The position numbers and the translations under genes were made by a program. This document shows, piece after piece, positions 12,661 to 31,451 of a stretch of DNA of 31,451 bases; position 1 is the first letter of the stretch, and each line of letters begins with the position of its first letter. A model generated the notes under the pieces. That model was given only the letters and a program-made list of their open reading frames with translations, did no database searches and was not told the DNA's origin. Location: positions 1-31,451 of IMG/VR virus record IMGVR_UViG_3300048823_000083. The stretch is one strand, 5' to 3'. This DNA is from a virus.

Positions 12661-12681
12661 ACCCTATGGACAATGTAGAAT

Positions 12682-12754
12682 GCGGGGATAGTTTAGCGGT
12701 AAAACAGCCGACCCAATCGGAAATCGGGGGTTCAAATCCAGCCTCTCCGCTCCA
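12682..12754 (+). tRNA. Degenerate tRNA-like gene, possibly tRNA-Trp(CCA)
   Basis: A GCGGGGA/TCTCCGC acceptor stem with U73 and an encoded CCA, a good D arm (GTTT...AAAC with AGCGGT) and a TTCAAAT T-loop are visible. The T stem is poorly paired (GGGGG against CCAGC). The anticodon region CCGA-CCCAA-TCGG folds tightly. Read as a 7-nt loop (ACCCAAT), the anticodon would be CCA (Trp), but position 33 is C, not U. A reading frame (GDSLAVKQPTQ...) through it is a tRNA shadow. It may be a decaying or unconventional tRNA. Confidence 0.5.
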
Positions 12755-12800
12755 ATCTGCACGCCAACTTGCCGAGCAACGATTCAAGACCAATCCAGTA

Positions 12801-13538
12801 ATGTGTTTCCAGCGACATCTAATTGAAGCTTCCGCCGAGCTTAATCCTCGGGAAAAATACCCTAAAGAATTCCTGCTTCACGAAGGTGTGCGGGAGATCA
12901 CTCGTGCTGAGTGTGCGACATTCATTGAGCAGTATGAATACCTCGGCACCCTCGGTCGCGGTAGCGTGTACTACGGGTTGTTCATGCCGAATGGCGAGAT
13001 GGTTGGGGCCAACTGCTTCTGCACAAGTGGCGGCGGGATTGGGAACATTTGTGGGCCTGAGTACGCGGGTAAGACCGCTAACCTAGCCCGTGGGTGTTGT
13101 GTCCTCCACGCCCCCGTCAACGCGGGCTCGTTCTTTACTGCTCGTTCAATCAAGATGGCGTATGCGAAATACGGATGGCAAGTGTACTTTGCTTACAGTG
13201 ACCCCAACGCCAGTGAGAACGGCAAGCTTTACAAAATCCTGAACTGGTACTATCTTGGCGCGGGCCTCAACCATAGTGGCGGGCATAGTGACTGGTATAA
13301 GGACGGCAACAGGATCAAAAGCTACGCCGTGTTCCGCGATGGCGGCAAGGCCCTAGTGAAGTACGGCTATGAGCCGGGCACAGGCGGGCAATGGGCGTGG
13401 CTGCGAGCTAATGGTTGGGAGCAGAGAATTGATCCCGACAAAGGGAAATTCTGCTGGTTTGAGGGCAACAAACGCGAAGTACGAGCCGCAAAAGCGGCGT
13501 GTCGCTACCCCCTTGATCTACCATTCCCAGAAAAATAA
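12801..13538 (+). CDS. Mom-like GNAT-fold protein (DNA modification family)
   Basis: About 245 aa from ATG 12801. The frame is open back to ATG 12666 but that part is the tRNA-like gene. Signature pieces are FIEQYEYLGTLGRGSVYYGLFMPNG, LARGCCVLHAPVNAGSFFTARSIKMAY, YFAYSDPNASENGKLYKILNWYYLGAG. Known of the family: Mu Mom and relatives share the 'YHYLG...YYG', 'SR-V-D-AP-NS-S' and 'S-AD...G-IYQA-N-Y-G' motifs and convert adenine to N6-carbamoylmethyladenine, protecting phage DNA from restriction. The SADP-like 'YSDPNASENGKLYKILNWYYLG' is the best match. The 'SR' Arg is LARG here. Assignment as a DNA-modifying GNAT is inference, strengthened by the thymine-pyrophosphorylase gene 1.4 kb away. Confidence 0.7.
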   Translation: MCFQRHLIEASAELNPREKYPKEFLLHEGVREITRAECATFIEQYEYLGTLGRGSVYYGLFMPNGEMVGANCFCTSGGGIGNICGPEYAGKTANLARGCCVLHAPVNAGSFFTARSIKMAYAKYGWQVYFAYSDPNASENGKLYKILNWYYLGAGLNHSGGHSDWYKDGNRIKSYAVFRDGGKALVKYGYEPGTGGQWAWLRANGWEQRIDPDKGKFCWFEGNKREVRAAKAACRYPLDLPFPEK

Positions 13539-17604: not shown

Positions 17605-17639
17605 ATTCCTAGCCAAAATCCTCAGACTTCTGGTATCAT
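17605..17639 (+). promoter_or_regulatory. tmRNA promoter (ATTCCTAGC-N20-TATCAT)
   Basis: ATTCCTAGC (17605-17613), then 20 nt including CCAAAATC, then TGG-TATCAT (17634-17639). The same elements and spacing recur at 25172, 26148 and 28718. Predicted start is near G17646. Confidence 0.7.
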
Positions 17640-17645
17640 GTAATA

Positions 17646-17946
17646 GATGGTCGTAAGCCCCGCAAGGGGTAAAAGGCACTGGTACTGATTTTCAGACAGG
17701 GGTTCGACTCCCCTCAGGTCCACCATAAATTTTTGCACCACCTTATGGGCCTGCCCCGGTTTCGATGGAGACGGTATGGGATGGCAGCCAGCGACCCGAG
17801 CGCAAGGGTGTACCCTCGTTAAACAGGCATTCAAAAAAGTAAACGCTGAAGCTCCAAAGGCTTTCGCTGCTCATGCTTAATGAGCCAGACCCCGTGGGTC
17901 TGTTCCTCAACACGGCAAGAACGCCCGCGCAAGCGGGCATTTTTGT
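17646..17946 (+). ncRNA. ssrA: Circularly permuted (two-piece) tmRNA
   Basis: The mature ends are swapped in the gene. The acceptor piece comes first: T arm AGGGG-TTCGACT-CCCCT and acceptor 3' strand CAGGTCC-A-CCA (17715-17725). A 21-nt spacer (17726-17746) follows. The coding piece begins GGGCCTG (17747-17753), which pairs with CAGGTCC over 7 bp including G3-U70, the alanine identity pair. Next are GGTTTCGATGG (the conserved tmRNA 5' motif), a PK1-like CCGAG...CCTCGTTAAA segment and the tag frame (17839-17880). Read from GTA, the tag is VNAEAPKAFAAHA, then TAA TGA. The CAGACCC/GGGTCTG hairpin and terminator follow. tmRNA rescues stalled ribosomes with SmpB; the tag lacks the usual LAA end, so degradation may differ. 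Resume codon is uncertain (GTA or AAC). Confidence 0.9.
17922..17946 (+). terminator. Rho-independent terminator of the tmRNA
   Basis: GCCCGC/GCGGGC stem with a GCAA tetraloop, followed by ATTTTTG. Confidence 0.85.
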
Positions 17947-17952
17947 TTCTGG

Positions 17953-17981
17953 TTGACAATCTGAATTCCAAAGGCTAGTAT
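17953..17981 (+). promoter_or_regulatory. Canonical sigma70-type promoter
   Basis: TTGACA (17953-17958), a 17-nt spacer and TAGTAT (17976-17981). It drives the following 353-aa gene whose ATG lies 11 nt downstream, leaving almost no leader. It is the only textbook -35/-10 pair in the window. Confidence 0.7.
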
Positions 17982-23909: not shown

Positions 23910-23985
23910 GCGCCCGTAGCTTAGCGGTTAAAAGCAGTCGTCTCTAAAACGATGATCGTCGGTTCGAATCCGACTGGGCGCACCA
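23910..23985 (+). tRNA. Amber suppressor tRNA, anticodon CUA
   Basis: Fully canonical 76-nt tRNA: acceptor GCGCCCG/TGGGCGC, A73, encoded CCA; U8-A9; D arm GCTT/AAGC with GG; anticodon stem GTCGT/ACGAT; loop CTCTAAA with U33 and anticodon CUA; T arm GTCGG-TTCGAAT-CCGAC. It pairs with UAG. A -10-like TAGAAT (23897-23902) lies just upstream. The amino acid cannot be deduced here. Its plausible client in this window is the Pth2-like gene with amber codon 13. Most other genes simply use TAG as a stop, so suppression is likely partial. Confidence 0.93.
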
Positions 23986-24888: not shown

Positions 24889-25146
24889 ATGGCAAAAATC
24901 AATAAGAAGACCAAGACCTGCGGTAGCACCACCTGCGTCGGCTGCCTGCCGCCGAAGAAGTTCGTATTCAAGATTGAGGGGAGCTTTGAGCTTCCAGCTT
25001 TCTGGACTGCGGACGCCGCCGAAGTGATACTGACAAAGGCTCTCGATCAGGGGTTGAACCTCATCGTCGAGGGGCGTTGCAGTAATAGCATCGAATACGC
25101 CGCTTACGTTTTCGAGGACAAAGATGCCGACTCCAGCTTCCGTTGA
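24889..25146 (+). CDS. 85-aa Cys-containing protein, function unknown
   Basis: ATG 24889 lies at the expected transcription start, so it is probably leaderless; no Shine-Dalgarno is visible. KTKTCGSTTCVGCLPPKK contains a CxxC-like pair with a third Cys. The remainder (FVFKIEGSFELPAFWTADAAEVILTKALDQGLNLIVEG) is alpha/beta and compact. No family assigned. Confidence 0.65.
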   Translation: MAKINKKTKTCGSTTCVGCLPPKKFVFKIEGSFELPAFWTADAAEVILTKALDQGLNLIVEGRCSNSIEYAAYVFEDKDADSSFR

Positions 25147-25171
25147 GATAATGCAGTACGCATAGTCCAAA

Positions 25172-25206
25172 ATTCCTATCGATTCTGATCCATTTTTGGG
25201 TATAAT
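25172..25206 (+). promoter_or_regulatory. Promoter (ATTCCTATC-N20-TATAAT)
   Basis: ATTCCTATC (25172-25180), exactly 20 nt, then TATAAT (25201-25206). One of the four best copies of the phage promoter family. Confidence 0.7.
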
Positions 25207-25238
25207 AGTCTTTCAGGCTCTTCTATAGGGGATACCTT

Positions 25239-25634
25239 ATGCATGGAACTGGCGATGTCTTAGGCGATCTGCTCAAGATCGCGGCAATGAACAAGGCGCA
25301 GATCGAGAAGCTCCTTGAACATTGGCAGATGGTGCAGCAAAAGAACCCCCCATCATCTGGGGAATGGCAAGACGCCTCAAAGCGAATCCACGAATTGGCC
25401 GAAATTCAACGACTCGTCACCGATGCGCTCAAGAACCCTTTTGGGAAGCCCGACTACAAGTTCGTCAACCTCGAAGAGGTCTCCGCTCTTTTCAAGCGTC
25501 AGATCGAGCGGCTGGGTTGCACCGATGTCAAAATAGCGGCCACTTTGAATCACGACGCTATTGACATCGAAGCTCGCTTTACACCCCCGCCATCCCCAAT
25601 TGTTATCAGTTTCACGGTTGAACCGAAGGAGTAA
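25239..25634 (+). CDS. 131-aa protein, function unknown
   Basis: ATG follows AGGGGATACCTT. The helical N-terminal half has heptad-like spacing (LLKIAAMNKAQIEKLLEHWQMVQQ..., RIHELAEIQRLVTDAL), suggesting a coiled coil. The C-terminal half is beta-like (LGCTDVKIAATLNHDAIDIEARF). It heads a three-gene operon of tiny proteins. Confidence 0.65.
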   Translation: MHGTGDVLGDLLKIAAMNKAQIEKLLEHWQMVQQKNPPSSGEWQDASKRIHELAEIQRLVTDALKNPFGKPDYKFVNLEEVSALFKRQIERLGCTDVKIAATLNHDAIDIEARFTPPPSPIVISFTVEPKE

Positions 25635-25637
25635 CCC

Positions 25638-25850
25638 TTGGTTGAACACCACCACGAACGTTGCCACAGTTGCCATAAGCCGTTCGATCATGAATTGCTG
25701 GATTTCTTGTCCTGCGAATTGAATGAGTGCTACCGCTGCACTATGATCGACGAAAAAGACGCCTTCCGCCGTCTGCGGGAGTTGCGGCGTCGGATAATCG
25801 TCGGCAACCTGATGGATAGCGTGCCGATGGCGACGAAAGCGATCCAATGA
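25638..25850 (+). CDS. 70-aa zinc-knuckle protein, function unknown
   Basis: TTG start, preceded by AAGGAG. HHHERCHSCHKPFDHEL...CELNECYRC has paired CxxC motifs and His residues forming a probable zinc finger. A basic helix (FRRLRELRRRI) follows. Likely nucleic-acid binding. Its stop overlaps the next start. Confidence 0.6.
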   Translation: MVEHHHERCHSCHKPFDHELLDFLSCELNECYRCTMIDEKDAFRRLRELRRRIIVGNLMDSVPMATKAIQ

Positions 25851-26140
25851 AACCCGATTGGACTCAAATCACCTTCGGCCCGCGTGCTCGCTGGGAACGC
25901 CGCGATGGGGCGATTGTGAGATACGATGAGTCATCGCCATATCCCAACCCAGCCGTGTCCTCGGCAAAGATGTTCACGGCATGGGAGCCCGATCCTTCCG
26001 AGCGGGCGTTATCGATGGAGCGAGGCCACTGGCGAGTAGCTCAGGACGGGCACAGATTCAAGTTTTCGTTTCCTCGGCGATGGAAGACGGCAGAAGCAGC
26101 GATGCGGGCGGTGAACAAAGAATTCCCCTTTCAAAAATAA
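25847..26140 (+). CDS. 97-aa basic protein, function unknown
   Basis: ATGA overlap with the previous gene. Aromatic/basic sequence (MKPDWTQITFGPRARWERRDG..., HRFKFSFPRRWKTAEAAMRAVNKEFPFQK). The C-terminal helix with Arg/Lys resembles small phage nucleic-acid-binding proteins. No family is known. Confidence 0.65.
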   Translation: MKPDWTQITFGPRARWERRDGAIVRYDESSPYPNPAVSSAKMFTAWEPDPSERALSMERGHWRVAQDGHRFKFSFPRRWKTAEAAMRAVNKEFPFQK

Positions 26141-26147
26141 TTTTCAA

Positions 26148-26182
26148 ATTTCTATCGAAAATCTCGACTTCCATGGTATTAT
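26148..26182 (+). promoter_or_regulatory. Promoter (ATTTCTATC-N20-TATTAT)
   Basis: ATTTCTATC (26148-26156), 20 nt containing CGAAAATC, then TGG-TATTAT (26177-26182). Predicted start is about 26189. Confidence 0.7.
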
Positions 26183-26189
26183 AGTAGAC

Positions 26190-26279
26190 ATGAAGCAGAC
26201 ACTCCAAACTCGAACTACAACGCAACAAATTACAATTACGTGCGTGCGGGTCGGCGTGTCTGGTACTCAGGGTGAGTAA
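26190..26279 (+). CDS. Possible leaderless 29-aa ORF (or small RNA) ahead of a terminator
   Basis: The ATG coincides with the predicted transcription start. The frame encodes MKQTLQTRTTTQQITITCVRVGVSG and ends at TAA. A terminator follows about 25 nt later, so the transcript is about 135 nt. A strong promoter and terminator around such a short frame could equally mark a small RNA, or a leader for the tRNA-Ile that follows. No function can be assigned. Confidence 0.35.
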   Translation: MKQTLQTRTTTQQITITCVRVGVSGTQGE

Positions 26280-26303
26280 CCCCTAGAAAAATCAGAGACT
26301 TCC

Positions 26304-26326
26304 GAGCCGCCCACGGGCGGCTTTTG
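26304..26326 (+). terminator. Rho-independent terminator
   Basis: AGCCGCC/GGCGGCT 7-bp stem with loop CACG, followed by TTTTG. It separates the short transcript from the tRNA-Ile gene, whose first base is 6 nt downstream. Confidence 0.8.
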
Positions 26327-26331
26327 TATTT

Positions 26332-26408
26332 TGGCGGGTAGCTCAACTGGCTAGAGCACTGAACTGATAATTCAGAGGTTGGGGGTTCAAGTCCCTCTCC
26401 GCCAACCA
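26332..26408 (+). tRNA. tRNA-Ile, anticodon GAU
   Basis: Canonical 77-nt tRNA: acceptor TGGCGGG/TCCGCCA, A73, encoded CCA; D arm GCTC/GAGC with GG; anticodon stem CTGAA/TTCAG with loop CTGATAA; T-loop TTCAAGT. Decodes AUC/AUU. It heads a run of tRNAs interleaved with small proteins. Confidence 0.9.
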
Positions 26409-26427
26409 AATTTTAGAGGAGGTAGTC

Positions 26428-26565
26428 ATGGCTGAGACCTTGGAACAAGAGGATTACTCGACGTGGACTTCGTGCCAGATGTACGGGCACAATTACGTGA
26501 CTGATGAAGATCAGCCGAACTATCACTTCTGTACCGACTGTGACGAAGCTTACTTTGACGAGTGA
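26428..26565 (+). CDS. 45-aa zinc-binding-type protein, function unknown
   Basis: ATG preceded by AGAGGAGG, a very strong ribosome binding site. Acidic MAETLEQEDYSTWTSCQMYGHNYV... has one Cys plus HFCTDCDEAYF, a C...H...CxxC zinc knuckle. Lies between two tRNAs. Confidence 0.65.
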   Translation: MAETLEQEDYSTWTSCQMYGHNYVTDEDQPNYHFCTDCDEAYFDE

Positions 26566-26575
26566 GTTTCGTTGT

Positions 26576-26649
26576 GGACCCGTCTTCCAATGGCAGGATC
26601 GGCGACCGATTATCGCTCAATGGTGGTTCGAATCCATCTGGGTCTACCA
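26576..26649 (+). tRNA. tRNA-like gene, anticodon reads GAU with C33 (amino acid uncertain)
   Basis: Acceptor GGACCCG/TGGGTCT with A73-CCA (GU pairs at both ends); T arm GGTGG-TTCGAAT-CCATC is good. The anticodon arm GGCGA-CCGATTA-TCGCT gives a 7-nt loop with C at position 33 and GAU at 34-36 (Ile). A competing fold ATCGG-CGA-CCGAT exists. The D stem is weak. Assignment is tentative. Confidence 0.6.
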
Positions 26650-26708
26650 AGTTCAATGTGGCATATCGTACCCATACAGGGGCCGATTAGGGGAGTATAA
26701 GCCGCCTT

Positions 26709-26882
26709 ATGGGTACAACGGACGAGCGACCATGCGAGGCGTGCGGAGTCAAGGCGGGTGGGAACCTGCGGATGCATGAGAAGGATTGTGCGTTGATCGC
26801 GAGTTATTGTGAAAGGTTTCCCGGGGGCAAGAACTCGCCGCAGTGGGAACGTAAAGGCCCTCGGATGAATGCGAAACACTAA
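26709..26882 (+). CDS. 57-aa zinc-finger-like protein, function unknown
   Basis: ATG follows AGGGGAG at about 13 nt. CEACGVKAGGNLRMHEKDC spells a CxxC...H...C finger (about residues 9-27). A basic tail (RKGPRMNAKH) suggests nucleic-acid binding. The stop lies 11 nt before the next tRNA. Confidence 0.6.
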   Translation: MGTTDERPCEACGVKAGGNLRMHEKDCALIASYCERFPGGKNSPQWERKGPRMNAKH

Positions 26883-26893
26883 AATTTAGAAAT

Positions 26894-26975
26894 GCTAGCG
26901 TGGCACAGTGGCGACTGCAATGGTTCCGTAAACCATCATACAACACCGGGGGTTCGAGTCCCTTCGCTAGCTCCA
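26894..26975 (+). tRNA. tRNA-Thr-like, anticodon CGU, with C33
   Basis: Perfect acceptor GCTAGCG/CGCTAGC with U73-CCA; anticodon stem ATGGT/ACCAT; loop TCCGTAA reads CGU (codon ACG) but has C, not U, at position 33. T arm GGGGG-TTCGAGT-CCCTT. The variable region is unusually long for this class (about 11 nt). Amino acid identity follows the anticodon only. Confidence 0.75.
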
Positions 26976-26980
26976 GATTT

Positions 26981-27056
26981 GCAGACGTAACACAATTGGC
27001 AGTGTACTTTCTTGGTAAGAAAGAGGTTGTGGGTTCGACTCCCATCGTCTGCTCCA
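26981..27056 (+). tRNA. tRNA-Thr, anticodon GGU
   Basis: Canonical 76-nt tRNA: acceptor GCAGACG/CGTCTGC with U73-CCA; D arm ACAC/GTGT with GG; anticodon stem CTTTC/GAAAG with loop TTGGTAA (U33, GGU); T-loop TTCGACT. Decodes ACC/ACU. With the CGU and UGU genes, all four Thr codons would be covered. Confidence 0.92.
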
Positions 27057-27072
27057 TTTTTAGGAGAACAGC

Positions 27073-27369
27073 ATGTACAACTGTGAGATGTGCAACACGT
27101 CGTTCGAGGAAAAGGCGGACTTTCTCGCCCATCCTCATATCATCCAGAAGAAGCTACCAGTCGGTAGGGTGGAAGTGATGCACAGTTGCGGACACGTGGA
27201 AGTAGTCCGCAGTTTCGACGACCCGATGTATTCGGAAGAGCGAATCGCAAAGCTCGGGAAGACGAAGGAACAGTTCGTAAAGGAACAGATTGAATGGTAC
27301 GCGAGCGTGCCCTGTCCCGGCTGCTACGTTCCTCGACACGGATATGCGATGAACGGGCCGTGTTGCTAG
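27073..27369 (+). CDS. 98-aa double zinc-finger-like protein, function unknown
   Basis: ATG preceded by TTAGGAGAACAGC. MYNCEMCNTSFEEKADFLAHPH is a clear C2H2-like finger (CxxC...H-H). CGH follows and a C-terminal CPGCYVPRHGYAMNGPCC gives a second Cys cluster. Possibly an RNA- or DNA-binding regulator. It lies between tRNAs. A hairpin (CGCCTAA/TTAGGCG) follows the stop. Confidence 0.7.
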   Translation: MYNCEMCNTSFEEKADFLAHPHIIQKKLPVGRVEVMHSCGHVEVVRSFDDPMYSEERIAKLGKTKEQFVKEQIEWYASVPCPGCYVPRHGYAMNGPCC

Positions 27370-27420
27370 GCGGGTAAGCGCCTAAGAAAAGTTTAGGCGG
27401 AAAGACGCCTACAAAAATTT

Positions 27421-27505
27421 GCTACTGTGGCTCAGCGGCGACAGCACCGCACCTGTAATGCGGCGGGGAAACCCCACGGGAGTTCGAGTCTCCCCGGTAG
27501 CTCCA
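27421..27505 (+). tRNA. tRNA-Thr-like, anticodon UGU, class II-like variable arm, C33
   Basis: Acceptor GCTACTG/CGGTAGC with U73-CCA; anticodon stem CCGCA/TGCGG and loop CCTGTAA reading UGU, with C33; T arm GGGAG-TTCGAGT-CTCCC. Between them is a 14-nt variable arm with a GGGG-AAA-CCCC stem, as in Ser/Leu tRNAs. Thr normally has a short variable loop, so the identity is uncertain. Confidence 0.75.
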
Positions 27506-27590
27506 AGTTCGATTGATTCGTATGCCAGAAAGTGACTTATACGTCGCTTTTCAGCTACGGATCGATCTAAAGTGACGTAGAAATCACATT

Positions 27591-27664
27591 TGGGAGATCG
27601 TTCAACGGCAGGACGACAGACTTTGAATCTGTCTATCTAGGTTCGAATCCTAGTCTCCCAGCCA
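27591..27664 (+). tRNA. tRNA-Gln, anticodon UUG
   Basis: Canonical 74-nt tRNA: acceptor TGGGAGA/TCTCCCA with G73-CCA and a U1-A72 pair (Gln identity); D arm GTTC/GGAC; anticodon stem ACAGA/TCTGT with loop CTTTGAA; T-loop TTCGAAT. Decodes CAA. It lies upstream of an HNH gene that is followed by another Gln tRNA. Confidence 0.92.
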
Positions 27665-27676
27665 GTATTAGCCCTT

Positions 27677-28009
27677 ATGGGCTACAAAAACAAAACGGAT
27701 CAACTAGCAAGCCAACGACGTTGGTACAGCAACCATAAAGTTGAAGAGGTCGAACGAGTTCTTCAACGCCGACGTGATTTATACGACTGGCTCCGCAAAT
27801 TAAAGAGAACTCTTAAGTGCAATCGGTGTCCCGAGAGTTTTTGGGTATGTTTGGATTTTCATCATACCGATCCAACTGAGAAGGACATGAGTGTGGCGCA
27901 GGCTGTTCGCAACGGTTGGAGCAAGAAACGCATCTTGGCTGAAATTGCCAAATGCGAGGTTCTTTGCAAGAACTGCCACGCGAAAGAGCACGCCAAAATT
28001 GGGAAGTAG
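27677..28009 (+). CDS. HNH homing endonuclease (phage type)
   Basis: 110 aa. A basic N-terminus (RRWYSNHKVEEVERVLQRRRD) precedes a zinc-braced HNH core: CNRC, LDFHHTDPTEKD, and EVLCKNCHAKEH. HH and the final CxxCH...H are the usual metal-binding residues. Free-standing nuclease that spreads by cutting DNA. ATG 27677 is 12 nt after the first Gln tRNA. Its TAG stop is bases 8-10 of the next Gln tRNA, so the gene is wedged between two tRNA-Gln copies. This position mirrors the HTH-GIY gene at 22920. Confidence 0.85.
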   Translation: MGYKNKTDQLASQRRWYSNHKVEEVERVLQRRRDLYDWLRKLKRTLKCNRCPESFWVCLDFHHTDPTEKDMSVAQAVRNGWSKKRILAEIAKCEVLCKNCHAKEHAKIGK

Positions 28010-28076
28010 CTCAATTGCGTAGAGCAACTGCCTTTGAAGCAGAAGGTTGGGGGTTCGAGTCCCTCCTTCCCAGCCA
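28000..28076 (+). tRNA. Second tRNA-Gln, anticodon UUG
   Basis: 77 nt: acceptor TGGGAAG/CTTCCCA with G73-CCA and U1-A72; D arm GCTC/GAGC; anticodon loop CTTTGAA (U33, UUG) with stem ACTGC/GCAGA (A27-A43 mismatch); T arm GGGGG-TTCGAGT-CCCTC. Distinct in sequence from the first Gln tRNA, so not a recent duplicate. Its first 10 bases are also the 3' end of the HNH gene. Confidence 0.9.
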
Positions 28077-28083
28077 AATTCTC

Positions 28084-28527
28084 ATGACTACCCATTTCAT
28101 GGGTATGGACATCCTTCACAAATTCATTCTGGGCGGTGAAATCTACCTCGCCGCCGCTTCAGGACTCGTTGTCGTTAGTGCGTTGTTCCGTAGCTGGCAT
28201 CACCTTCGCGGCACATCGAACACCATGCCAATGAACCCCGCGAACATCGCTATCGCTATGGCGAAGTCCAATAACGAAAGCCGCATCCACCGCTGGCTAG
28301 ACGCGTTCGATATTTTCTTGAATGTCAGTTTTATGAACGGGTCCAACGATGAAACGATGTCCGCGCACGCATGGCGAGCATCCGTCGAAGGTCATCTGTG
28401 GGGCAAGGCGATGAACTGGTGGTTAAGTGGCTTCCAGCCGAACCACGGGTATCAAGCCGCTTGCGGCGATCTCCAGCGGGCGCTGAATCGCATGGCTGTT
28501 GAGAAGAAGGCGCTCGGCCTTCAGTAG
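28084..28527 (+). CDS. 147-aa protein with N-terminal membrane segment, phage accessory family
   Basis: ATG 28084 is chosen; the upstream frame overlaps the HNH gene and tRNA. Residues 10-40 (LHKFILGGEIYLAAASGLVVVSALF) form one hydrophobic helix. The C-terminal part (LDAFDIFLNVSFMNGSNDETMSAHAWRASVEGHLWGKAMNWWLSGF) resembles a small phage protein with a 'DETIS-RA-R---G--WG' core that I recall in many phages without a known function. Not assignable further. Confidence 0.65.
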   Translation: MTTHFMGMDILHKFILGGEIYLAAASGLVVVSALFRSWHHLRGTSNTMPMNPANIAIAMAKSNNESRIHRWLDAFDIFLNVSFMNGSNDETMSAHAWRASVEGHLWGKAMNWWLSGFQPNHGYQAACGDLQRALNRMAVEKKALGLQ

Positions 28528-28655
28528 TTACGCCGTGCTGGTGCCTGTTCTTTGGTCCTTGCCTGTAAAAATTCCGCAGCTTTAATCAGCAATGCGGGGT
28601 CATCCGAGAAGCACCCCATACCCTTGTTGTGCCAAACCAGTGCAATTTTGAGCAT
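28521..28655 (-). CDS. Possible 44-aa minus-strand gene, function unknown
   Basis: On the minus strand an ATG frame reads MLKIALVWHNKGMGCFSDDP, then LLIKAAEFLQARTKEQAPARRNY. Composition is protein-like and it fills a 240-nt space with no + strand gene. It converges on the preceding gene by 7 nt. No Shine-Dalgarno or strong promoter is obvious, so it is uncertain. Confidence 0.4.
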   Translation of the reverse strand: MLKIALVWHNKGMGCFSDDPALLIKAAEFLQARTKEQAPARRNY

Positions 28656-28717
28656 TTTGTGATAGACTTTTGAATGTGACTGACACTACCATTTTCAGCC
28701 ATAAATCAAGTTTCAAA

Positions 28718-28752
28718 ATTCCTAGCCAAAGTGCAACCCCCTTCGGTATAAT
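28718..28752 (+). promoter_or_regulatory. Promoter (ATTCCTAGC-N20-TATAAT)
   Basis: ATTCCTAGC (28718-28726), 20 nt including CCAAAGTG, then TATAAT (28747-28752). It drives the GH16-GT2 operon. Confidence 0.7.
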
Positions 28753-28769
28753 GGGGACGAGGAGAATAC

Positions 28770-29093
28770 ATGGGAACAACTTGTCCATTGAATGATCTCG
28801 GGTTACATTTTTGTCAATGTAAGGATGAGCCAGTTCGGTCGATCAACTCGAAAGAAGAGTTTACCCGCGCACTGACTCGCCTTGTCCTCACGCTAGCCGC
28901 TAAACTCGATCTGACGCCAACCGATCTATATGGTGTGGTTGTTCGACTTCGTGACATCGATTCCGAGATCGTCACGAAATTCACCGAAGCACATGCGGGA
29001 CAGACTTTTGGTACCGCCGTTGAAGCGGGGCAGCGTAGCATGGAATTTCGCCGCGAATACCTCACCGCCCTTCTGGAAAAGGAATCACGATGA
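28770..29093 (+). CDS. 107-aa protein, function unknown
   Basis: ATG follows GACGAGGAGAATAC. The N-terminus has CPLNDLGLHFCQC (Cys/His). The rest is a helical bundle-like stretch (FTRALTRLVLTLAAKLDLTPTDLYGVVVRLRDIDSEIVTKF). First gene of the carbohydrate operon; its TGA overlaps the GH16 start. Role in the operon unknown. Confidence 0.65.
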   Translation: MGTTCPLNDLGLHFCQCKDEPVRSINSKEEFTRALTRLVLTLAAKLDLTPTDLYGVVVRLRDIDSEIVTKFTEAHAGQTFGTAVEAGQRSMEFRREYLTALLEKESR

Positions 29094-29920
29094 GGTTCGT
29101 CTTTCTACTCATAGGGATACTGAGTTCCGTTGTAAAATTGTTTGCTAGCGCTCCCGTAGTTCCACGTAAAGACGGTATCGTGGACACTGGAATTATATCT
29201 AGTGAACCGTTTTCCGACGATTTCAGCGGTGGAAAACTTGACCTTGAAAAATGGACGCCCGGCTGGTGGAAAGCGACAGACTCTAAGCATGGATTGAATC
29301 TCGGCAGTTATAAAGCAGAGAATTTGGATTTTTCTCATGGTATGTTGTCCATCAAGATCACGCAAACTCCCGACCGTGAGGAAGGCATTTTATCCTCGGG
29401 GGCGTTGATTTTCTCTAAACAACGGTTCGGGTTCGGAACTTACGAATTTGTAATGCGAATGACATCAACATCGTCCACACCAGATGGTCGTGGCGAGGTC
29501 CGCTCAGGAGCCATCTCCTCTGGTTTTATATATCGGCACACATCCGAGACCGAGATTGATCTTGAGTTTCAAGGTGGTAAGAATGCCATTTATATTTCAG
29601 TGTGGCACAACTTGAAGCCTGATGTCCCTCTGGACACGAACAGCGACAAGTGGCCTAAGCATACGCAAAGTGTAGAAAACAAATTGTTGAGCAACGGATT
29701 TCACAAGTACACGCTGATCTGGACTTCTAAGTCGGTTAGAGTTATCATCGATGGCAAATTGGCCGCCACTCAAACTAAAGACGTACCACAAATCCCAGCG
29801 AAAATCTTTATTCAACATCGTGGAACTAATAGCCGTAGTTGGGGCGGGGAAGCTACACCGAACGTAACTCGCTACTTTTATGTCAAGAGCGTCATCTTTA
29901 CACCTGAGGCCGTCAAATGA
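29090..29920 (+). CDS. Secreted GH16-family glycoside hydrolase (beta-glucanase-like)
   Basis: 276 aa. An N-terminal hydrophobic signal (MRFVFLLIGILSSVVKLFAS) is followed by a GH16 jelly-roll fold: FSDDFSGGKLDLEKWTPGWW, KAENLDFSHGMLSIKI, SSGALIFSKQRFGFGTYEF. The catalytic motif EIDLE at residues 155-159 fits the GH16 E-x-D-x-E signature (nucleophile E155, acid/base E159). GH16 enzymes cleave beta-1,3/1,4-glucans, laminarin, lichenan or carrageenan. Substrate cannot be told here. It is coupled (ATGA) to a micro-ORF and the GT2 synthase, so it may trim or release the polymer made by that enzyme, or digest host capsule. Confidence 0.88.
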   Translation: MRFVFLLIGILSSVVKLFASAPVVPRKDGIVDTGIISSEPFSDDFSGGKLDLEKWTPGWWKATDSKHGLNLGSYKAENLDFSHGMLSIKITQTPDREEGILSSGALIFSKQRFGFGTYEFVMRMTSTSSTPDGRGEVRSGAISSGFIYRHTSETEIDLEFQGGKNAIYISVWHNLKPDVPLDTNSDKWPKHTQSVENKLLSNGFHKYTLIWTSKSVRVIIDGKLAATQTKDVPQIPAKIFIQHRGTNSRSWGGEATPNVTRYFYVKSVIFTPEAVK

Positions 29921-30003
29921 TTAGTATCCTTTTTTACACGATCATTTTTGCCATAGCTGTGATAGGTATTCTTCGCCGCAGATGGCGGAAGGGGAAACAC
30001 TAA
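29917..30003 (+). CDS. 28-aa membrane micro-protein
   Basis: Starts at the ATGA overlap and ends at the TAATG overlap with the GT2 gene. MISILFYTIIFAIAVIGILRRRWRKGKH is one transmembrane helix with a strongly basic cytoplasmic-type end. Probably a small subunit or regulator of the synthase, or an unrelated micro-protein; the tight coupling on both sides argues it is translated. Confidence 0.55.
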   Translation: MISILFYTIIFAIAVIGILRRRWRKGKH

Positions 30004-31247
30004 TGTTGCTGTTCTTATTTTGTTTCATACTCATTATACCCCTGTTTGTGATTGCAACGCGATCCGTTTTTACATTTTTTCCAGAAAGTGTTCATCCGAA
30101 GACATTTCAGGTGAAGAAGGATTTCAATTACACACCGACCGTGGCGGTCATTATCCCTTGCTATAACGAAGGCGAGGCGGTCTACACCACCATCAAGGCA
30201 GTGTGGGATAGTGACTATCCGAAGGAAAACCTGAAAGTTTACCCACAGGACGACGGCTCCGTGGATGACAGCTATACTTGGATGCTCAAAGCTGCAACGG
30301 ACTTCGACCGTGTATATCCAGAGCGCAATCCGCAAAACCTGAGTAAAACACACACCTATCTAAGGGCTATGGATCGCTCAGAATCGGAGATCGTCATTAA
30401 CGTGGATTCAGACACAATTGTTGAGCCTCATACAATTCGGAACCTCATCGCGTGTCTTGCAGATGAGCGTCTCGGCGTCGTGGGTACGCCCGCAGGATTG
30501 GTCAATGGGAATGACAGCTTGTTGACTGGAATGCAAACCTTCAATTGGAGTCTATACAATCAATTCATCACAAACATGGAAAGCGCTTTTCGAGCCAATC
30601 AGGTTATCGGTGGATTCGGCCTTGCGGTTCGTCGCCATTTACTGGCAGGTATCGCCGATCAAATCCGCACACGAAACTGGTTTGGCTGTTCCACGAAGGA
30701 TGGCGAAGACCGCTATATAACCCACTTGATTCTCTTACAGGGATTAGGCAGTTACATCGAGCAGAGCGCGACCGTGCGGACATCCGCCATGCCCGACTAT
30801 CCTAAATTTTGGGGTCAACAGGTTCGGTGGCGTCGTAGTAGTTATCGCAGTTCGTTATGGGTTCTTAGAACACTGTGGTTTCACATCAACCACATGCCTA
30901 TGATGGCGATATGGGCAATTCTCGCTCAACTGTACTTGTCTTTCGCGGCATTCATCCTCGTGGTCTATTTTTTGTTCGCAGGGCCGTTAACACTGCTAAA
31001 TCCCATCAGGCTCATCACTTTCCTCGGCGTAGCGATTGCGCTCATTATTTTTTGGGATCGCGATATGAAATATCAAAAATTAAGAAACCCTTTCAAGATG
31101 TTGTTAGCCATACCGTGGGTCATCTTTAGTCAATTTTATCTGGCGGTGGTTTGTTTGCTTACTCTCGATCAAGACGCATGGGGAAATAGAGACAAAAAGC
31201 AAGATACCAAGTCAGAAAGAAACCAAACCAACAGGAGAACAAAATGA
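30003..31247 (+). CDS. Membrane glycosyltransferase family 2 (hyaluronan/cellulose/NodC-synthase-like)
   Basis: 414 aa from ATG 30003 (TAATG coupled). An N-terminal transmembrane helix (1-20) is followed by a GT-A domain: VAVIIPCYNEGEA, DDGSVDD (83-89), DSD (135-137, metal-binding DxD-type), GED (234-236, catalytic base) and QQVRW (272-276, the QxxRW motif of processive synthases). Several C-terminal membrane helices follow (about 297-335, 340-360, 375-398). This combination is characteristic of processive beta-glycan synthases that polymerise and export a polysaccharide. Product unknown. The basic tail (KKQDTKSERNQTNRRTK) is cytosolic. Carrying such a synthase is unusual for a phage; the paired GH16 suggests an exopolysaccharide module. 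Confidence 0.88.
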   Translation: MLLFLFCFILIIPLFVIATRSVFTFFPESVHPKTFQVKKDFNYTPTVAVIIPCYNEGEAVYTTIKAVWDSDYPKENLKVYPQDDGSVDDSYTWMLKAATDFDRVYPERNPQNLSKTHTYLRAMDRSESEIVINVDSDTIVEPHTIRNLIACLADERLGVVGTPAGLVNGNDSLLTGMQTFNWSLYNQFITNMESAFRANQVIGGFGLAVRRHLLAGIADQIRTRNWFGCSTKDGEDRYITHLILLQGLGSYIEQSATVRTSAMPDYPKFWGQQVRWRRSSYRSSLWVLRTLWFHINHMPMMAIWAILAQLYLSFAAFILVVYFLFAGPLTLLNPIRLITFLGVAIALIIFWDRDMKYQKLRNPFKMLLAIPWVIFSQFYLAVVCLLTLDQDAWGNRDKKQDTKSERNQTNRRTK

Positions 31248-31451
31248 AATTGCAAACGGTTAACAACCTCAGGGCCGTCATCCTTCCCGTCTATCGAGTG
31301 TTTTCGATGCTCACCCTATACGGTATCCTCTTTTGCATTTTGGCATATGCGGGCGCGATGTTGTTCTACGCTGGAAGTTCATCGTGGATTGTGCCTTTCG
31401 TAGTTTCGAATTCGGATACCACCGTCCTGACCATTACCAGTCAGCTAACCG
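31244..31451 (+). CDS. 5' end of a membrane protein, function unknown (truncated by window edge)
   Basis: ATGA overlap with the GT2 stop and AGGAG in the ribosome binding site. The 69 visible residues begin MKLQTVNNLRAVILPVYRVFSML, then a transmembrane helix (LTLYGILFCILAYAGAMLFYA), then a periplasmic-type stretch (SWIVPFVVSNSDTTVLTITSQ). A membrane-fusion (HlyD-like) topology would fit export of the GT2 polymer but too little is visible to tell. Confidence 0.7.
   Translation, partial: MKLQTVNNLRAVILPVYRVFSMLTLYGILFCILAYAGAMLFYAGSSSWIVPFVVSNSDTTVLTITSQLT

Follow-up and report, generated by a model that had tools for sequence, protein, structure and literature searches.

A candidate polysaccharide synthesis and export operon carried by large soil bacteriophages

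Bacteriophages are known for glycan-stripping enzymes and for small changes to the O-antigen. A stretch of DNA from a large soil bacteriophage, a relative of which infects Acidobacteriota, raises the question of whether a phage may also build a glycan on the bacterium that it infects. This stretch (31,451 nucleotides, the entire IMG/VR record IMGVR_UViG_3300048823_000083, referred to here as the window) ends at position 31451 within an operon, so the remaining genes of this operon were read in relatives. Based on these comparisons, the genes at the 3' end of the window probably form the 5' half of a synthase-dependent operon with which the phage would make a polysaccharide, and this glycan, once synthesised and exported, would recoat the infected cell.

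Table 1. Features at the 3' end of the window
Feature	Position	Strand	Basis
Sigma-70-like promoter, TAGCCA-18-TATAAT	28723..28752	+	consensus scan, 10/12; ahead of operon
107-aa protein, function unassigned	28770..29093	+	ORF; stop overlaps GH16 start
G005 identity breakpoint / start of diverged operon allele	29087..29088		blastn and sequence comparison
Exported GH16 glycoside hydrolase, 276 aa	29090..29920	+	PF00722, motif, hydropathy
28-aa single-span membrane peptide, basic tail	29917..30003	+	ORF, hydropathy, G005 counterpart
Processive-type GT2 synthase (hyaluronan/NodC/chitin-synthase-like), 421 aa	29982..31247	+	PF00535, PF13641, motifs
Inner-membrane-anchored periplasmic adaptor, first 69 aa, cut by contig end	31244..31451	+	G005 homology

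An earlier, sequence-only reading of this DNA described a GH16 enzyme, a 28-aa membrane peptide, a QxxRW GT2 synthase, and another membrane protein as coupled end to end. This arrangement was confirmed, as ATGA stop/start overlaps are found at the starts of the genes for GH16, the 28-aa peptide, and the membrane protein at 31244, and the peptide and GT2 genes overlap by 22 bases. A record from a sister phage (G005, 223.5 kb) has this gene order too, with a membrane peptide of 26 aa encoded between GH16 and GT2, and the window protein that starts at 31244 shares 65% identity across 63 aa with the N terminus of the 350-aa adaptor encoded in G005. The presence of this order in a second phage allele and the match to the adaptor N terminus indicate that the arrangement in the window is more than chance. 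The 107-aa protein encoded ahead of GH16 had no match in family searches; its gene is present in G005 and missing from the scar that replaces the operon in two other phage records (G002 and G004). When these sequences were compared, the stretch with the promoter-like site was found to be retained, up to the ribosome-binding site, in both G005 and the operon-less G002 and G004; over the entire consensus scan, sigma-70-like sites were no more numerous than in shuffles.

The window GH16 protein matched Pfam family PF00722 (E 4.3e-13, 49.5 bits), as did its relatives in G005 (73.5 bits) and in a 463-kb phage record, G011 (65 bits), against a cut-off of 22 bits. The protein has a hydrophobic N terminus and an intact TEIDLEF sequence at aa 154-160 that contains the catalytic EIDLE, and the E-x-D-x-E motif (as TEIDLEF or TEIDFEF) is present in all three phage GH16 proteins examined. 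The closest solved structures to the window GH16 are lichenases.

The window GT2 protein matched PF00535 (E 2.4e-17) and PF13641 (E 1e-15), and its DDGS, DSDT, GEDR, QQVRW, and WGNR motifs are all intact. The DD, DxD, (G)ED, and QxxRW motifs are those of processive GT2 synthases (hyaluronan synthase (HAS), NodC, and chitin synthase), and WGxR is the C-terminal gating-loop motif of processive synthases. All five motifs are present in the four phage GT2 proteins. The DD, DxD, (G)ED, and QxxRW motifs form invariant columns in a GT2 alignment, and the gating-loop motif is WGNR in three of the phage proteins and WVTR in the other. In a structure search, the window GT2 matched hyaluronan synthase structures, and its WGNR region aligned with WGTS of hyaluronan synthase 1. 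By score, the closest NCBIfam models were NodC (E 9.8e-33, yet 113.7 bits compared with an equivalog cut-off of 550) and PgaC (71.6 bits compared with a cut-off of 422.3), so both scores fall below the level for assignment to these families. The family matches, the hydrophobic GH16 N terminus, and the intact motifs support the earlier description of a phage operon with a secreted GH16 and a processive-type GT2; broken GT2 residues, which had been named as evidence against it, were looked for and not found.

In G005, the order of the operon is GH16, 26-aa membrane peptide, GT2, periplasmic adaptor, TolC-like channel, and UDP-glucose 6-dehydrogenase. The AlphaFold2 model of the adaptor (pTM 0.48) contains an N-terminal membrane helix, a coiled-coil hairpin, and a beta domain, and its top Foldseek match was EmrA (4tko, E 4.0e-6); structural matches other than EmrA were weak, and the VIA list, which was dominated by coiled coils, was left unused. 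The model of the channel contains two repeats of a beta hairpin plus long helices, features of a TolC outer-membrane factor, and 39 of 39 Foldseek matches with E <=0.001 were to TolC/OprM/CusC-type channels (best E 1.6e-10). In VIA, the channel model gave a Z of 16.6 over 332 residues, with a value of 9.6 for the best unrelated row. Neither the adaptor nor the channel matched Pfam export families. The G005 dehydrogenase is of the TuaD type and is split over two frames. The dehydrogenase N-domain family was found in one of the seven phage records searched, G005 alone, and this search gave no match beside the synthase in G011 or in G012, a phage of a different type. From this distribution, a uronate is not common to all of these operons, and the sugar could be another; the window ends before the place where this gene would lie. 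With an adaptor predicted to resemble EmrA and a channel whose predicted structure is plainly of the TolC family, the G005 genes appear to encode a full synthase-exporter that would take a polysaccharide across the envelope. The sequence-only reading had raised the idea that a glycan could be made; inspection of the downstream genes, with an adaptor, a channel, and a UDP-glucose 6-dehydrogenase found in G005, makes both synthesis and export much more likely.

Acidobacteriota and Burkholderiales have a bacterial kin system. Genes for GT2, adaptor, and channel are clustered at each of the 16 best genome loci (L038-L053) and at one plasmid locus, and GH16 is also present in 4 of these 17 loci (0 of 11 for L038-L048). 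The bacterial genome scan returned at least 586 stretches and at least 202 relatives, of which 80 were retained, and counts from it are lower bounds. At E 1e-8, no GH16 was detected in three bacterial genomes that have a kin operon, a blank that reflects a limit of this search, since L052 has a GH16 by phmmer. The bacterial sets of Acidobacteriaceae and Burkholderiales (L038-L053, L029) consist of adjacent genes from the same families as the phage operon but, unlike it, are chromosomal or plasmid-borne. The Burkholderiales sets add GH16 and/or a UDP-sugar dehydrogenase; in Paraburkholderia, the gene order is circularly shifted compared with that in the phage (adaptor-channel-dehydrogenase-GH16-GT2), and the dehydrogenase is TviB-type rather than TuaD-type. 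Because the Burkholderiales GH16 belongs to the same gene set and adjoins GT2, the phage GH16 is, from gene order, better read as a putative component of the synthesis machine. The earlier claim of a secreted GH16 in a phage operon stands, and a role for it as a separate degrader of host glycan is less favoured.

G005 is 99.97% identical to positions 1-29087 of the window. Within near-identical surroundings, the operon alleles of these two phages have diverged (41-43% amino acid identity for GH16 and 58-60% for GT2). In G002 and G004, which are identical to each other here, the operon has been lost, leaving a scar in which the start of GH16 is joined to the end of the dehydrogenase gene, the first and last genes of the operon. 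In G011, GH16-GT2-adaptor-channel genes are found at the same locus with flanks conserved on both sides, so the phage genes that border the operon are the same in the window/G005 and in G011, and these flanks also surround the scar. Host-derived prophage capsule genes, the other finding named as evidence against a phage operon, were not found, and a prophage or host contamination was rejected because phage genes flank the locus on either side in G005, in G011, and in G002 and G004 with their scar. G012 contains GT2-adaptor-channel genes; the Terminase_6N family had no match in G011 or G012.

The isolated relative Tunturi 5 has no GH16 and no GT2 of this type, and a PF13641 search of five phage records gave no match in two of them, including Tunturi 5, the one isolate. 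These absences, together with the loss in G002 and G004, indicate that the function is dispensable. Scans of viral contigs found no second contig with the operon allele of the window, and single-sequence scans with GT2 and with GH16 were unproductive; a set of 50,697 phage records contained no tblastn match to GH16, adaptor, or channel. In a distant blastn search with positions 25000-31451 of the window, the best 20 of 213 records contained pieces covering 1% of the query, mostly at annotated tRNAs. Matches to Acinetobacter 'phage MD-2021a' records were also seen, and host DNA is suspected in those records. A tentative reading of the divergent alleles, by analogy with serotype switching, is that jumbo phages of soil Acidobacteriota might keep a cassette for a complete polysaccharide extruder spanning the envelope and swap its alleles on otherwise identical genomes, a clone-specific coat then excluding rivals.

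An operon that can be deleted, as in G002 and G004, or be missing, as GH16 and this GT2 are in Tunturi 5, might be cargo of little or no use to the phage, that is, a bacterial exopolysaccharide operon acquired by transduction-like capture and now being lost. The kin operons in Acidobacteriota and Burkholderiales, the frame-split dehydrogenase of G005, and the base composition of the operon, which differs from that of phage genes in both alleles, are consistent with this possibility. However, the catalytic motifs are all intact in four phage records. In addition, phage and bacterial kin GT2 proteins form one clade (100/99) in which the four phage proteins are a moderately supported group of their own (84/88), apart from the bacterial ones and on long branches, and phages with baseplate proteins that are now 53-63% identical have an operon at this same locus. 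The separate GT2 group and the locus shared despite this divergence point to long residence rather than fresh capture, and we consider the cargo explanation unlikely.

It is also improbable that GH16 and GT2 act separately, with GH16 degrading host exopolysaccharide at entry or exit and GT2 modifying lipopolysaccharide or O-antigen. Gtr proteins of temperate phages modify host lipopolysaccharide via a lipid-linked sugar, and the best PHROG match of the window GT2 was to GtrB-like O-antigen conversion (phrog_841, E 9.4e-7, residues 53-167). In a tundra soil-virus study, GT2 and hydrolases of the xyloglucan type appear as AMGs listed separately from each other (PMC11924767). On the other side, end-to-end coupling links GH16 with GT2, and the pair is found together in G005, G011, and Burkholderiales. 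The GT2 carries QxxRW and WGxR, as processive synthases do, and its nearest NCBIfam models are NodC and PgaC. An adaptor and a channel follow the GT2, and to our knowledge Gtr systems are without either. No GtrA flippase or serotype-specific GtrC was found beside GT2, its neighbours being GH16, adaptor, and channel. The phage operon thus resembles GtrABC as a phage-borne GT2 predicted to alter the host surface, but differs in that its synthase is of the processive type and is paired with a dedicated export route; an independent depolymerase plus a Gtr protein was rejected based on gene coupling, motifs, and neighbours.

We regard as very improbable an assembly chimera in the last 2.4 kb of the window, with an allele from another genome misjoined at 29087, since, although near-identity to G005 stops at a single point, no second contig with this allele was found, and operon GC (0.46) departs from that of phage genes (0.52), the new allele continues at the right place and in the right order with the gene set and overlapping starts of G005, a misjoin would require some other phage in which this allele follows identical upstream sequence, and the operon as a phage trait is also supported by G005, G011, and G012.

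For the preferred reading, a phage-borne operon for polysaccharide synthesis and export, we infer that the phage of the window has the same downstream genes as G005 and that the encoded parts work together. The inner-membrane GT2 would use nucleotide sugars to polymerise a linear beta-glycan and would thread it through its own membrane part, and the EmrA-like adaptor and TolC-like outer-membrane channel would take the polymer across the envelope. The exported GH16 may trim, release, or control the length of the polymer in the periplasm. With the G005 allele, UDP-glucose 6-dehydrogenase would supply UDP-glucuronate, so that polymer would be acidic. The hosts, Gram-negative bacteria of soil that are probably Acidobacteriota, would upon infection gain a phage-specified coat, which could shield the cell from rival phages or from its surroundings.

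The operons for cellulose (Bcs), alginate (Alg), and PNAG (Pga) each combine a GT2 synthase, envelope-spanning partners, and a periplasmic glycan-cleaving enzyme. The phage operon is like these in having one GT2, envelope-spanning partners, and a putative periplasmic glycan-cleaving enzyme, but the outer-membrane part of the bacterial systems is a TPR plus beta-barrel protein, whereas that of the phage has a predicted TolC fold, and the phage partners have no Pfam match. Among viruses, chlorovirus PBCV-1 has genes for HAS (a098r), UDP-GlcDH (a609l), and GFAT (a100r) (PMC5408694), and a 2005 paper cited in that source reports, by its title, rearrangements that switch between hyaluronan and chitin synthesis. 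As in the phages studied here, chloroviruses encode a processive GT2, some with a viral UDP-glucose dehydrogenase, and its presence varies among related viruses (PMC5408694). Chloroviruses coat the infected algal cell with hyaluronan or chitin (PMC5408694), and the bacteria infected by these phages would likewise be recoated with a linear glycan. They also differ in their eukaryotic algal host, their scattered genes, and the lack of an outer membrane to cross (PMC5408694), and the phage operon, unlike theirs, has its own adaptor, outer-membrane channel, and hydrolase.

We found no title or abstract describing a bacteriophage polysaccharide synthesis-export operon in a search largely outside subscription journals and preprints. 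The results above suggest that, for some phages, infection includes recoating of the host bacterium. If so, a phage would make a polymer on its host and send it out of the cell by means of a synthase, an adaptor, an outer-membrane channel, and a precursor enzyme, a prokaryotic counterpart of the hyaluronan or chitin coat of chloroviruses. Because a phage and a bacterium of this group, Tunturi 5 and Tunturiibacter, have been cultured (PMC11924767), the question could be tested in bacteria, and this would provide a bacterial system for the long-open chlorovirus question of why a virus coats a cell that is about to be killed.

In a Pfam search of the window, the GH16 and GT2 genes were found where the sequence-only reading had placed them, and the end-to-end coupling it described is borne out by an overlap of reading frames at every junction. 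The GH16 protein keeps the motif TEIDLEF (residue 154), and the GT2 protein is unbroken at all five of its motifs, DDGS (residue 90), DSDT (142), GEDR (241), QQVRW (279), and WGNR (400). A promoter-like site precedes the operon and is one of 6 in the scan, for a chance expectation of 4.4. At 31,451 bases, the window comprises an entire IMG/VR record. Its 3' end falls within the adaptor gene, and half of the operon is visible in it.

The rest of the operon was read in the sister record G005 (223,506 bases), which is 99.97% identical to window positions 1-29087 (29,088 alignment columns). The near-identity ends at the start of the GH16 gene, and the gene order beyond this point is the same in G005. 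When aligned, the GH16 proteins of the two records are 41% identical (the search gave 43%) and the GT2 proteins 58-60%, with a 26-aa membrane peptide encoded between them in G005. Inspection of the downstream genes, a check suggested by the sequence-only reading, revealed proteins of 350 and 357 amino acids and then a UDP-sugar dehydrogenase that is split between two frames. The N terminus of the 350-aa protein is 65% identical to the protein cut at the window end, and we infer that the window phage carries G005-like downstream genes.

The 350-aa protein, modelled with a mean pLDDT of 80.5 and a pTM of 0.48, combines a membrane helix and a beta domain with a long coiled coil, and Foldseek ranks the adaptor EmrA first among its matches (E 4.0e-6). 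For the 357-aa protein (pLDDT 85.4), all 39 Foldseek rows with E <= 0.001 are TolC-type channels (best E 1.6e-10), and VIA gave a Z of 16.6 (top unrelated row, Z 9.6) with an rmsd of 8.7 over 332 residues; its predicted structure identifies it as a TolC-type channel. The Pfam search found no family for either protein, so the export part would escape annotation. The dehydrogenase pieces score best as the UDP-glucose 6-dehydrogenase TuaD, and the frameshift that separates them is either genuine or an artefact of sequencing or assembly.

Coordinates of features in the window and in related phage records
Feature	Location	Strand	Remarks
Mom-like DNA modification protein	window 12666-13538	+	phrog_1384, E 6.3e-17
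Permuted tmRNA	window 17629-17971	+	ARAGORN tag AEAPKAFAAHA; Rfam RF04321, 69.7 bits
tRNA, anticodon CTA (called Pyl)	window 23910-23985	+	adjoins tRNA with odd four-base anticodon
GH16	window 29090-29920		PF00722 E 4.3e-13
GT2	window 29982-31247		PF00535 E 2.4e-17; PF13641 E 1e-15
UDP-glucose 6-dehydrogenase (G005)	L023 13470-14844	+	split over two frames, both parts recognisable
Asn/Ser/Gly-rich repeat protein (G005)	L023 14922-16394	+
Asn/Ser/Gly-rich repeat protein (G002)	L118 6095-7636	+
Asn/Ser/Gly-rich repeat protein (G011)	L125 12357-13865	+
UvrD-like helicase (G004)	L119 6623-9604	-	intein-looking insert between GDMSQ and SIYGF
Additional GT2 (G005)	G005:C1:207545-208162
Additional GT2 (G002)	G002:C1:118932-119573

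The window also encodes an endolysin-like protein, homing endonucleases, and a 1423-aa protein that matches the baseplate wedge of Tunturi 5 (44.6% identity, 90% of length covered), and relatives of this protein are encoded at thirteen viral loci, including G005. Tunturi 5 has a genome of 308,711 bases; according to PMC11924767, it is a myovirus and infects Tunturiibacter psychrotolerans (Acidobacteriota). The RNA genes of the window are one permuted tmRNA and nine tRNAs (Rfam). Seven of the 26 main frames counted end in TAG, which makes wholesale amber recoding of the window unlikely.

Phage records G002 and G004, mutually identical over the compared 19.9 kb, match the window to 28776, retain the promoter-like stretch, and resume directly after the position of the G005 dehydrogenase. 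Between these break points lie ∼380 bases that hold a GH16 start (39% identity over 64 aa, one in-frame TAG) and then the tail of a dehydrogenase C-domain, which PF03720 matches with E 0.0002 but at 22.2 bits, below the cut-off of 30. We read this state as a deletion that began in the operon's first gene and reached into its last. PF00722 had no match in Tunturi 5, G002, G004, or G010 (0/4); PF13641 had none in Tunturi 5 or G010, two of the five phage records searched, and one match each in G002 and G004, away from the operon locus. Additional GT2 genes lie elsewhere in G005 and G002.

At the same locus, G011 (463,033 bases) encodes GH16, GT2, adaptor, channel, and a further small GT; no dehydrogenase was found in its operon. 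Its flanks are related to those of the window or G005 (upstream gene 80%, PP2C 43%, helicase 55% identity), as is its baseplate protein (53-63%). G012 (111,514 bases) encodes GT2, adaptor, and channel, and all eight of the surrounding genes tested have a PHROG match; its matches to that baseplate protein are faint. The five GT2 motifs are retained in 4/4 phage GT2s. In G002, G005, and G011, the next gene after the operon position encodes a secreted repeat protein very rich in Asn, Ser, and Gly. The UvrD-like helicase of G004 contains an intein-looking insert that is lacking in G005 and G011.

In principle, a misassembly at 29087 could account for the difference between the window and G005 alleles. 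GC content is 0.46-0.47 in the window allele, 0.54-0.58 in the G005 allele, and 0.52 in other phage genes, and this shift in opposite directions fits replacement of the operon through recombination with different donors. The case for the operon as a phage trait stands without the window.

A genome scan with the GT2 alignment was analyzed for the best 80 of 202 relatives, to which counts by locus refer. GT2, adaptor, and channel genes occur together in all 16 loci L038-L053, although L053 is weak, the L038 adaptor frame ends early, and the L043 channel is cut by a contig end. L054 has GT2 only, on a 3.1-kb contig, and an adaptor match was present in one (L056) of the 63 loci L055-L117. GH16 accompanies the set in three of the 16 (L049, L051, and L052) and dehydrogenase matches in five; both also occur in the Paraburkholderia megaplasmid locus L029. 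Among 200 genomes sampled from the same family as the Granulicella genome, 6 matched the adaptor profile, so the bacterial system is sporadic.

In a tree of 47 GT2s, built after exclusion of three distant phage fragments (L032, L033, and L037), the four phage proteins form one group (84/88; recovered in 82% of bootstrap trees), with the placement of L125 (G011) less sure on its long branch. The phage group adjoins a Burkholderiales group (6) and an Acidobacteriota-type group (12, including one contig labelled Betaproteobacteria), and the three are jointly well supported (100/99). The tree argues for long residence in phages over fresh capture but leaves the donor undecided.

Synthases of this GT2 type polymerise UDP-sugars into linear beta-glycans and translocate the product, and TolC channels with adaptors span the periplasm and outer membrane. 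The operon proteins may act jointly, with GH16 in a trimming role, and the G005 allele would yield an acidic polymer. The nearest precedent for the proposed coat is the hyaluronan or chitin of chlorovirus-infected algae. According to PMC5408694, the presence of these polymers differs among viruses and their benefit is unknown; attachment of other viruses was seen to be blocked, yet this was deemed an unlikely explanation. By the mechanism proposed for the phage operon, the infected cell would gain a coat.
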